Positions 31,633-41,059 of a DNA stretch of 64,000 bases are shown one piece after another (the stretch's first letter is position 1; every line of letters starts with the position of its first letter). The position numbers and the translations under genes are program-made. The notes beneath the pieces were generated by a model, which was not told the DNA's origin, searched no databases, and saw only the letters and a list, made by a program, of their open reading frames with translations. The stretch is from Bacteroidaceae bacterium (GTDB taxonomy: Bacteria; Bacteroidota; Bacteroidia; Bacteroidales; Bacteroidaceae), in assembly GCA_017534535.1 (NCBI GenBank), contig JAFXVZ010000024.1, positions 1 to 64,000 of the forward strand, read 5' to 3'.

Positions 31633-31673
31633 AGTGAGAGGCGGATAAAAACTCCGCCTCTTACTATTTTTTC
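31633..31673. terminator. Bidirectional terminator between topA and nrdG
   Basis: A 13-bp stem with one G-U pair (31633-31645 with 31653-31665) is followed by ATTTTTTCC on the plus strand and preceded by an A-run that gives T-rich sequence on the minus strand. The right arm overlaps the stop codon of nrdG (31664-31666). Confidence 0.85.
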
Positions 31674-32131
31674 CAAAACCTATCGGTAATATCATCGAAT
31701 TTTCCTTCGTCGTTCTGGCGATACATTCGCTGGTTCGTCGTAGGTTTCCCCAACGGCCCCAAATGCCTGATATACGGTCCCACTTTGATATAGTCGAAGT
31801 CCGTCTTTGTCACAGAAGATGGAATACGAAGTCGCCCACTATACCACCCCACCTTGTATTGCGGATATTCCTCATGTATATACTGAGCCAATTGATTCAC
31901 TCCTTTGGGATCGCAATCGCCTCCCATAAAAGCCAAGCAAGTGATGTTCTTCCCATATTTGGAAACAAAAGCATCTATCGCATCCGTGTCCAATGACACC
32001 CCGATGTCATCCCAGAGATAATGGCTATGACAGCCAGGACAATGGCAAGGACAATTCGAGATGTTAATGGCCAACGTCACCTCATCGGGTATCTCTTGAA
32101 ATACTACGTCAGTATTGACATACTTCAGCAT
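31664..32131 (-). CDS. nrdG: Anaerobic ribonucleotide reductase activating protein
   Basis: A 155-residue radical SAM enzyme that makes the glycyl radical in NrdD. The CX3CX2C cluster is Cys27, Cys31 and Cys34 (NCPCHCPGCHS), with an extra Cys29 between. MGGDCDPKG is the usual GGE-like motif in this family. It acts in the cytoplasm, needs a reductant and works only without oxygen. It lies 12 bases after nrdD, so the two are one operon. Confidence 0.95.
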   Translation of the reverse strand: MLKYVNTDVVFQEIPDEVTLAINISNCPCHCPGCHSHYLWDDIGVSLDTDAIDAFVSKYGKNITCLAFMGGDCDPKGVNQLAQYIHEEYPQYKVGWYSGRLRIPSSVTKTDFDYIKVGPYIRHLGPLGKPTTNQRMYRQNDEGKFDDITDRFWKK

Positions 32132-32143
32132 AACACCCTCCTT

Positions 32144-34246
32144 TTATTTCGCCCCAGAAGCATAGTAACGGCGTGCCGCTTCTTCCTGACGTGGCTGTGA
32201 GAAGTTGCTTACACGTTTCAGGTAACCAATAATGCGAGTCATATAATCCACATCTTTAGAGTGGCAATGAGGACACTCCTTCAGGTATCGCTTGTCAATG
32301 GTACCACACTTGTTGCAGATAGTATTTGGAATATTGAAAGTAAAGTAGTTGCAACCTTCTTGAGCAGCCACCTTCAACAACTGTTTATATTGATTCTTGC
32401 TCAAGTGCTCTTCCAGGTTCATGTGAAGAGCAGAACCTCCAGTCAGGTGCTCAATGTACGGAGCTCCATGTAATTTAAACTTGTCCAAGATGGTAAGAGA
32501 ATCATCCTCAACCACATAGAAATAAGAGTTGTAACAGTCGCGAGGCACGAAATAGCCATCCTCACGATCCCACTTTGCATGCTTCACACCTACATTCTCA
32601 GCAGGAATCATCTCGCAATTGAACATCACCTCCTTGGTACGATACTGCTTGTTGTACTTCTCTATCAAACCTAGGATGCCCTGTACAAAGTGCAGGTAAT
32701 CATCGTTTGGAGTAATCTTCAAGCCCATAAACTCAGCAGCCTCAACCAAACCATTGATACCGATGGTGAGGTACTGACGAGAAATGTTGATATAACCAGC
32801 ATCGAACAATGGAAGCATGCCATGTGCCTGCAATTCCTTTAGATTTTCGTTGTAAGCCAACTGTACTTTGTGGCAGAGATCGATAACGGTGCCCAGATAC
32901 TCCAGATAATCCATTCTGTGGTTCACTGCATACTGTACACAACGATTCAAATTGATGGTAAGCACACTCTTAGAGCCAGTTGATACGCCACCAGCACCCA
33001 GCGTATAGCTAAAGCCATTGTCTGTTATCTCGTTACGCAGACGACAGCAAGAACTCAGTGAGTCGGCATTGTCACTCATATAAGTGAAGAATGAATGGCC
33101 TTCCGCATACATCTCTGCGGTGAAGTCACCCCACTCAGGATCCAGGCACTCGCCATCCTTGTTAGTCAATAATGCCATCGTCTCAACCCGGAATGTCAAC
33201 AGCGTTTTCGTACGTTCCTTATTGAACCACTTCATAAAACGCTTCTGCAACCAAGAAAGGCCTTCCCAATCGGGCTTTGAACCATCGGGGAAATAGAACT
33301 CTCCAAAAATGCTTTCGAAGTAATACTTATCGTAGTATGCGATGTTCCAGAACACAGCCTGATAGTTACGTGCACCTGTCGGCTGATTCAGTGTATAGAC
33401 AATCTGCTCGAAGCAGTCGGTTATCACCTTATCGATGGTACGTTTCTTCAGGCTCAAGTCTGCCTGATCGTTTGGACGCTTATAATAATCAGCACCATAC
33501 TCACGACCGATGAAGTAGTTCATGTACATCAGGAACTCAGGGGTGGCGCACGCTCCGCTCAGCATACTAGACACCATGAACACCATATTTACAAAACTAC
33601 CACAGAAACTCTTCAGGTTAGTAGGTGCTGTACTGTTGCCACCAATGGAAATCGTACCGCCAATCAGCCAAGGATACATAGTGATGGAAGCACAATAATT
33701 TGCCAAGCTCGTTTCATCGTTCTTATATATAAAATGGTGTGTCAATTTGTCGATATACTCATCGGCCAACTGCTTTCCATACATCTTCTTGATGCGGTCA
33801 GTCAGCAGACGACGATTCAAACGGATGAAATTTGATTTAGGCAACTCACCTATCAAAGTTGCTATATTTTTATGTTCCACGTTTGCATTTGCGTCATACT
33901 TTGAACCAGTAGCAGCATTAACAGATTCACAATACTCTGATAAGAACTGCAACTTAGCCAGTGTCTCTCTGTCTTCAGAATGTGCCTGTCGGTACAGCAT
34001 GAAAGACTTAGCCACTTTATAGAAGCCTTCCTTCATCAGGGCCTCTTCTACTTGGTTCTGGATATCCTCCACCTTAATGTCATCATGCATATCCAAGTGA
34101 CTCAATATCTTGGAGATAGTTCCCAGGTCAGCTGGCTGTTCAACACTCTCGAATGCCTTCACGATGGCATTCATAATCTTATCTAAAGAGAAGCGGTCTT
34201 TAGAACCGTCGCGCTTGGTAATTGTAAAATTTTTAATTTCCATCAT
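32144..34246 (-). CDS. nrdD: Anaerobic ribonucleoside-triphosphate reductase
   Basis: A 700-residue class III reductase that makes dNTPs under anaerobic conditions. An ATP-cone (about 1-95, ITKRDGSKDRFSLDKIMNAI) gives allosteric control. The C-terminal zinc site uses Cys644, Cys647, Cys658 and Cys661 (ICNKCGTIDKRYLKECPHC). The radical glycine is Gly674 in TRIIGYLKR. A second Met directly after the first (34243) is an equally possible start. The leader upstream contains a striking set of complementary segments. Confidence 0.96.
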   Translation of the reverse strand: MMEIKNFTITKRDGSKDRFSLDKIMNAIVKAFESVEQPADLGTISKILSHLDMHDDIKVEDIQNQVEEALMKEGFYKVAKSFMLYRQAHSEDRETLAKLQFLSEYCESVNAATGSKYDANANVEHKNIATLIGELPKSNFIRLNRRLLTDRIKKMYGKQLADEYIDKLTHHFIYKNDETSLANYCASITMYPWLIGGTISIGGNSTAPTNLKSFCGSFVNMVFMVSSMLSGACATPEFLMYMNYFIGREYGADYYKRPNDQADLSLKKRTIDKVITDCFEQIVYTLNQPTGARNYQAVFWNIAYYDKYYFESIFGEFYFPDGSKPDWEGLSWLQKRFMKWFNKERTKTLLTFRVETMALLTNKDGECLDPEWGDFTAEMYAEGHSFFTYMSDNADSLSSCCRLRNEITDNGFSYTLGAGGVSTGSKSVLTINLNRCVQYAVNHRMDYLEYLGTVIDLCHKVQLAYNENLKELQAHGMLPLFDAGYINISRQYLTIGINGLVEAAEFMGLKITPNDDYLHFVQGILGLIEKYNKQYRTKEVMFNCEMIPAENVGVKHAKWDREDGYFVPRDCYNSYFYVVEDDSLTILDKFKLHGAPYIEHLTGGSALHMNLEEHLSKNQYKQLLKVAAQEGCNYFTFNIPNTICNKCGTIDKRYLKECPHCHSKDVDYMTRIIGYLKRVSNFSQPRQEEAARRYYASGAK

Positions 34247-34287
34247 ATCTATTTTGTCTAATTTTCCATGATATTAGCGTGTCTATT

Positions 34288-34338
34288 GTTTCCCATTTTG
34301 GGAAACTTTTGAAAATTTTGAAGTTAAAAAGTTTCCCA
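34288..34338 (-). promoter_or_regulatory. nrdD leader: three mutually complementary segments
   Basis: On the minus strand, segment A (34327-34338, TGGGAAACTTTT) is perfectly complementary over 12 bases to segment B (34299-34310, AAAAGTTTCCCA). Segment B also pairs over 8 bases with segment C (34288-34295, TGGGAAAC), giving the 19-bp palindrome GTTTCCCATTTTGGGAAAC at 34288-34306. A-B and B-C cannot form together. The element lies between the nrdD -7 element and the start codon, so it would be transcribed. It could be an RNA switch or a paired operator for a dimeric repressor. It does not match FNR or NrdR box consensus sequences. Confidence 0.7.
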
Positions 34339-34362
34339 TTTGGTATAACCGAAACACGGTTA

Positions 34363-34370
34363 CAAAGGTA
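34363..34370 (-). promoter_or_regulatory. nrdD promoter, -7 element
   Basis: TACCTTTG on the minus strand matches the consensus. It implies a leader of about 110 nt that contains the complementary segments. A second inverted repeat, AACCG-AAACA-CGGTT, lies just downstream at 34348-34362. Confidence 0.55.
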
Positions 34371-40880: not shown

Positions 40881-40954
40881 CTCTTCCTCTTGGACTTGAA
40901 CCAAGGACCCTCTGATTAACAGTCAGATGCTCTAACCGACTGAGCTAAGGAAGA
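40881..40954 (-). tRNA. tRNA-Asn (anticodon GTT), distal copy
   Basis: Cloverleaf with acceptor stem TCTTCCT/AGGAAGA, D-arm AGCTCAGTCGGTTAGAGC, anticodon GTT (plus-strand AAC at 40918-40920), T-arm with GGTTCAAGTCC and discriminator G. CCA is not encoded. It is identical over all 74 bases to the copy upstream. Confidence 0.95.
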
Positions 40955-40985: not shown

Positions 40986-41059
40986 CTCTTCCTCTTGGAC
41001 TTGAACCAAGGACCCTCTGATTAACAGTCAGATGCTCTAACCGACTGAGCTAAGGAAGA
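40986..41059 (-). tRNA. tRNA-Asn (anticodon GTT), proximal copy
   Basis: Same 74-base sequence as the copy at 40881; anticodon at 41023-41025. The two genes are 31 bases apart and transcribed from one promoter on the minus strand. Confidence 0.95.

Follow-up and report, generated by a model that had tools for sequence, protein, structure and literature searches.

A 62-bp pair of inverted repeats at ribonucleotide reductase genes of Bacteroidales as a probable DNA operator

In the window, the whole 64,000-nucleotide stretch of Bacteroidaceae DNA analysed here, the class III ribonucleotide reductase (RNR) gene nrdD is preceded on the minus strand by a 62-bp element made of two 19-bp inverted repeats, GTTNNCC-N5-GGNNAAC, whose starts lie exactly 43 bp apart. 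Comparison across genomes indicates that this element is a DNA operator and not an RNA switch, since its potential helices lack clear covariation and, at other targets, the predicted promoter comes after the pair or overlaps with it; it is very probably the double-stranded DNA operator of an RNR regulator in Bacteroidales. The regulator is probably a repressor, both binding and repression being what we infer from the comparison. The features of the locus, in window coordinates, are as follows.

31664..32131, minus strand: nrdG-type activating protein, 155 aa, TIGR02826; downstream of nrdD
32144..34246, minus strand: nrdD, oxygen-sensitive class III ribonucleotide reductase, 700 aa, TIGR02827
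34288..34306, minus strand: putative operator site 2, GTTTCCCAAAATGGGAAAC; intact; starts 43 bp past site 1
34300..34310, minus strand: site 2 inner half-site with the A-tract ahead of it, AAAAGTTTCCC; segment B of an earlier note on this DNA
34326..34337, minus strand: site 1 inner half-site and T-tract, GGGAAACTTTTT; covers most of segment A of that note
34331..34349, minus strand: putative operator site 1, GTTATACCAAATGGGAAAC; intact in its inner half, GGGAAAC, but degraded in the outer half facing the promoter
34363..34370, minus strand: predicted Bacteroidetes-type -7 promoter element, TACCTTTG; match to the consensus TAnnTTTG

The earlier note had described three complementary segments between a -7 box and nrdD, and its letters were confirmed: segment B (34310-34299, AAAAGTTTCCCA, minus strand) is complementary to A (34338-34327) over 12 bases and to C (34295-34288) over 8 bases, all of them sitting between the box TACCTTTG at 34370-34363 and the nrdD start at 34246. 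Its perfect 19-bp palindrome, GTTTCCCAAAATGGGAAAC, has perfect 8-bp arms but a non-palindromic AAA centre, the reverse complement differing at 3 of 19 positions, and its second half-site, A, is real but belongs, as the inner half, to a complete second inverted repeat, GTTATACCAAATGGGAAAC at 34349-34331, the degraded outer half of which reads GTTATACC. Both sites were matched together by model R1 (G000:C40:34286-34354, E 6.5e-13). The gene itself has two in-frame ATGs, at 34246 and 34243, and the second (34243) may be the true start, because tblastn matches begin at residue 2 in 65 of 80 nrdD relatives (the best 80 of at least 580).

Allowing up to 3 mismatches, 0.03 chance matches to the site 2 19-mer are expected in the window. 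Across the window's own genome (2.7 Mb, 89% complete) the strict palindrome pattern is present once, at the nrdD element, which is also the sole place matched by the 74-position model of the pair at E<=0.1; the two model matches listed for this genome are both strands of this single site, matched twice because it is nearly symmetric. Conservation was assessed in 87 upstream regions, consisting of the window, 7 same-genus loci and 79 others, which remained from the top 80 among at least 580 relatives once a duplicate was removed and are close relatives for that reason. The best pair stood at exactly 43 bp in 81 of the 87 and scored at least 20 of 26 in 84, 80 of these at exactly 43 bp, and 9 of 3480 dinucleotide shuffles reached that score at any spacing. 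Other best spacings occurred in L007 (42 bp), L063, L083, L089, L090 and L092; L083 has a 43-bp pair with an equal score, and no convincing pair exists in L090 or L092. The complementary segments, whose conservation in close relatives had been set as a test, recur as a pair in nearly all close relatives examined.

As the 'same genus' grouping takes in genomes of 1.7-7.1 Mb with nrdD 46-97% identical, we relied on sequence rather than on that label. No good pair was found within 400 bp upstream of the TIGR02827 nrdD of 21 same-genus loci (L009-L029), and weaker model matches at TIGR02827 nrdD occur in genomes of this set about 340 bp upstream (G111, E 1.1e-5) and, in G093, 400-460 bp upstream (E 0.012). 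The ungapped alignment A1 holds 74 sequences including the window (74 of 80 rows kept) and leaves out the same-genus loci L002-L006 and L008, in which a 43-bp pair is present. Within it the facing inner halves, GG..AAC of site 1 and GTT..CC of site 2, are invariant in 74 of 74 leaders and are flanked on the inside by T- and A-tracts, while the 4th and 5th half-site bases vary.

The link to RNR genes extends past the leaders on which model R1 was trained, those of close TIGR02827 nrdD genes, where matches are partly circular; matches at PRK07111-type nrdD and at nrdJ are not. With matches on both strands or next to each other counted as one, the strong matches (E<=1e-6) gave 96 places; two G325 matches 53 bp apart were among those counted once, and places from related genomes are not independent. 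A target was defined as a tblastn match to one of seven reference proteins (E<=1e-15) starting in the first 120 residues, its start -80 to 900 bp from the pair. As a raw share from tblastn, 91 of the 96 places have an RNR gene starting no more than 900 bp downstream, among them 4, from 2 genomes, between nrdD and a rubrerythrin gene and 2 between nrdJ and a nitroreductase; 2 of the 96 precede a nitroreductase only and 3 are without a target gene within reach. The independent evidence comprises 20 places at MNYAE-type and 4 at MIQTV-type PRK07111 nrdD genes, 4 at nrdJ genes and 10 at a more distant TIGR02827 subgroup. Genomes G001, G003, G012, G013 and G139 each carry a strong site at MNYAE-type nrdD. 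NCBIfam models placed representative targets above cut-off in class III (TIGR02827, PRK07111/TIGR02487), class II NrdJ (TIGR02504) and rubrerythrin, and a relative of oxygen-insensitive nitroreductases scored below cut-off. None of the 96 classified places belongs to a regulator gene that shares the operator.

The three places without a target gene have other surroundings: one lies between genes resembling metG (by eye) and tatD (L211), one beside genes resembling efflux parts (by eye; L230), and one at a contig end, with a leader like that of L311 and a cobalamin-riboswitch-like sequence (by eye; L320). At the first of these the strong match (L211:3034-3081, G237) follows the metG-like gene and is itself followed by promoter-like boxes, with no RNR gene; a possible 22-codon hydrophobic open reading frame, seen by eye, runs from 3143, and the site may control a small peptide or RNA. 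As a separate matter, phage RNR genes were considered as carriers of the operator and set aside: 13 viral stretches fitted a loosened inner-dyad pattern, and none of them held any of the seven reference genes within the part retrieved.

In the family of P. communis E15-14 (G149), 277 of 399 genomes had a match at E<=0.01 and 122 had none at that threshold under strict filters. The window's own genome and several relatives are incomplete assemblies. Seven of 247 genomes in the order sample matched at E<=1e-5; the 4 matches outside the window's family fall in three families, and all 4 precede an RNR gene by about 115-340 bp. In the class sample 5 of 295 genomes matched, the own genome included, all in the window's family.

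The position of the pair relative to promoters differs between targets. All -7 boxes here are consensus matches, so that promoters are predicted, not mapped, and averaged positions leave out loci whose pair scores below 19, near-duplicate sequences and loci at contig edges. The nearest box stands 18-22 bp before site 1 in 76 of 80 aligned nrdD leaders, at exactly 20 bp in 58; of the remaining leaders one has its box 3 bp before site 1, and L107-L109 have none within 34 nt. In the L107 genome a further repeat, poorly preserved, is present another 43 bp upstream (L286); counted from it, the L107 box at -153 would regain the usual spacing. No TTG at the -33 spacing was found for the window nrdD promoter (L251). 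With transcription starts placed by the usual -7 geometry, the pair would extend from about +9 to about +71 at a window-type nrdD promoter. At MNYAE-type PRK07111 nrdD genes the box follows the start of site 1 by 59, 93-94, 102-104, 136 or 147 bp, none of the boxes listed having TTG at the -33 spacing, and it overlaps site 2 in some PRK07111-type loci (-7 at +59). In 4 nrdJ loci it follows by 125 bp.

These positions, together with the fixed 43-bp spacing, which corresponds to about 4.1 helix turns centre to centre, fit the earlier note's suggestion of paired operators for a dimeric repressor, as do half-sites symmetric at the DNA level and an occasionally inverted A-tract; the recurrence of the pair at other RNR genes, where it precedes or overlaps the promoter, further supports that reading. 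Probably two dimers, or one dimer of dimers, would sit on one face of the DNA through the two 19-bp repeats. At the window nrdD, protein bound at about +9 to +71 would most likely block promoter clearance or elongation, and elsewhere it would cover or abut the promoter. The A-tract spacer is inverted in 5 of 80 site-1 and 2 of 80 site-2 centres (7 of 160), and four genomes (G251, G296, G350, G366) have 43-bp pairs with spacers in opposite orientation; to judge from the sequences, this inversion reflects symmetric recognition of DNA and not a conserved loop.

Repression is more likely than activation because of the position at nrdD and the loci in which site 2 overlaps the -7 box. We consider it unlikely, if the strongest of the alternatives, that the protein is an activator, or a dual regulator that represses from downstream and activates from upstream sites, for example in choosing class II over class III. 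The upstream pairs at nrdJ, where activators often bind, and at the many PRK07111-type nrdD genes with boxes 93-147 bp after site 1 would suit this, but the pair inside the predicted transcript of TIGR02827 nrdD and the overlapped site 2 suit repression, and both roles in one factor need more assumptions. A single operator that would serve class II (NrdJ) and two class III families in Bacteroidales suggests that the regulator probably sets deoxynucleotide supply, by analogy with NrdR elsewhere. As to the signal, the RNR focus suggests dNTP status, and the nitroreductase and rubrerythrin genes suggest redox.

The presence of redox genes among the targets (nitroreductase-like genes, and rubrerythrin in 2 genomes) would suit the reading in which a known global factor, for example DnaA or a redox regulator, binds here in place of an RNR-dedicated protein. 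DnaA controls E. coli nrdAB, and the half-site TTNTCCA is similar to part of the DnaA box. We rate this reading as quite improbable, given that RNR genes account for nearly all strong sites examined and that only one site is present in the own genome, unlike the pattern of a global regulator; DnaA boxes themselves found no support, the consensus TTWTNCACA occurring in only 5 of 87 upstream regions. FNR/Crp operators have TTGAT-N4-ATCAA half-sites, and the repeat arms GTTNNCC/GGNNAAC differ from that consensus.

NrdR, a protein of zinc ribbon and ATP-cone whose DNA binding is governed by ATP/dATP, was rejected as the regulator in the genomes sampled. Its whole-protein model (TIGR00244) matched above cut-off in 0 of 12 genomes, the own genome included, and the three weak partial hits (L111-L113) fell below cut-off in open frames of 734-764 aa; its zinc ribbon (PF22811) was above cut-off in 0 of 15 genomes, with weak hits in 8; and ATP-cone matches above cut-off (18 genomes) all fell in open frames as long as an RNR (700-854 aa). 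The 16-bp NrdR-box consensus fitted the 87 upstream regions no better than shuffled ones (window 11 of 16). NrdR is termed a universal repressor of bacterial RNR genes (PMC12051234), yet at E<=1e-10 it was found in 0 of 149 genomes (99 genera) of our class sample, controls being positive in 9 of 14.

NrdR binds two 16-bp boxes with spacers of 14-17 or 24-27 bp, about three or four helix turns centre to centre, the longer class being one turn more (PMC12051234, PMC12176259), and blocks the promoter as a tetramer (PMC9110341). Like that system, the element described here has a whole number of helix turns between its two palindromes (43 bp, in 81 of 87 regions), sits ahead of RNR promoters or across them, and has several RNR classes as targets (for NrdR, within one genome). 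Unlike NrdR boxes, those of the element are 19 bp long, GTTNNCC-N5-GGNNAAC, and at the window nrdD the pair lies downstream of the predicted promoter. We regard as evenly balanced the fuller proposal that a Bacteroidales repressor dedicated to RNR genes, of a protein family different from NrdR, reached an NrdR-like solution independently, with two dimers, palindromes four turns apart, class II and III genes jointly controlled, and dNTP status or redox sensed. If the regulator has the box geometry of NrdR but not its sequence, this would be convergent evolution in dNTP control.

The remaining reading, an attenuator or riboswitch built on alternative, mutually exclusive pairings of segments A, B and C in the nrdD leader, as the earlier note had also proposed, we hold to be highly improbable after tests with the three helices and their controls, consensus folding and Rfam. 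In its favour, the predicted promoter of the window nrdD is upstream of the element, a T-run follows the first repeat, the site-1 helix scores slightly above the shuffle mean in covariation, and the window leader by itself outperforms 199 of 200 shuffles in folding (z -3.35), but inverted repeats fold well whatever their function. The check for covariation in aligned nrdD leaders that the note had suggested gave no clear signal for any of the three helices: in alignment A1, covariation of the A-B helix was at or below that of shuffles (500 of 500 at least as high), that of the B-C (site-2) helix was matched or exceeded by 476 of 500, and that of the site-1 helix was somewhat above the shuffle mean (0.085 vs 0.073), a value reached by 44 of 500. 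Covariation contributes 0.01 kcal/mol to the consensus fold, and the 4th half-site base is unpaired in 35 of 74 sequences for the site-1 helix, 46 of 74 for A-B and 47 of 74 for B-C. The spacing tolerates almost no indels, as also argues against an RNA switch. No Rfam family matched the element at the gathering threshold, all matches lying far below it, in agreement with the statement that no named RNA class is recognised.

At MNYAE-type nrdD and nrdJ genes the pair precedes or overlaps the predicted promoter and therefore, if those promoters are right, would fall outside the leader RNA and cannot work as part of it. A cobalamin riboswitch (RF00174), likewise a feature of Bacteroidales RNR genes, stands just downstream of the pair in 7 of 7 scanned MNYAE-type nrdD loci; it is an RNA sensor with a conserved structure, unlike the element, which has neither clear covariation nor an Rfam match.

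Our literature search returned no paper on the motif or on an RNR regulator of these bacteria, most subscription papers and regulon databases lying outside the search, and the motif strings matched three papers, unrelated by title; an earlier report of the motif may exist. With its invariant half-sites, the proposed 62-bp DNA operator is a bait with which the regulator can be sought directly by DNA-affinity purification, and the targets of that regulator are predicted by the regulon.

Several smaller observations concern neighbouring genes and the alignment. In L208, L210 and L213 class II nrdJ and a nitroreductase-like gene (246 aa) are divergently oriented and share one operator, and in L204 and L212 such a gene has its own operator, beside genes resembling folB (by eye). 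A second pair lies about 300 bp from the nrdD pair, nearer a divergent rubrerythrin gene, in G152 (L221:3024-3085) and G515 (L220:2855-2911), where this oxidative-stress gene may join the RNR regulon. Inner half-site variants in columns 21-22 versus 53-54 of A1 look anticorrelated (double changes number 6, where shuffles average 14.3, and 0 of 500 shuffles went lower), which could reflect shared ancestry or a preference for unlike half-sites. Elsewhere in the window, two tRNA genes with identical Rfam scores of 71.1 bits lie about 30 bp apart on the minus strand (40881-40954 and 40986-41059).
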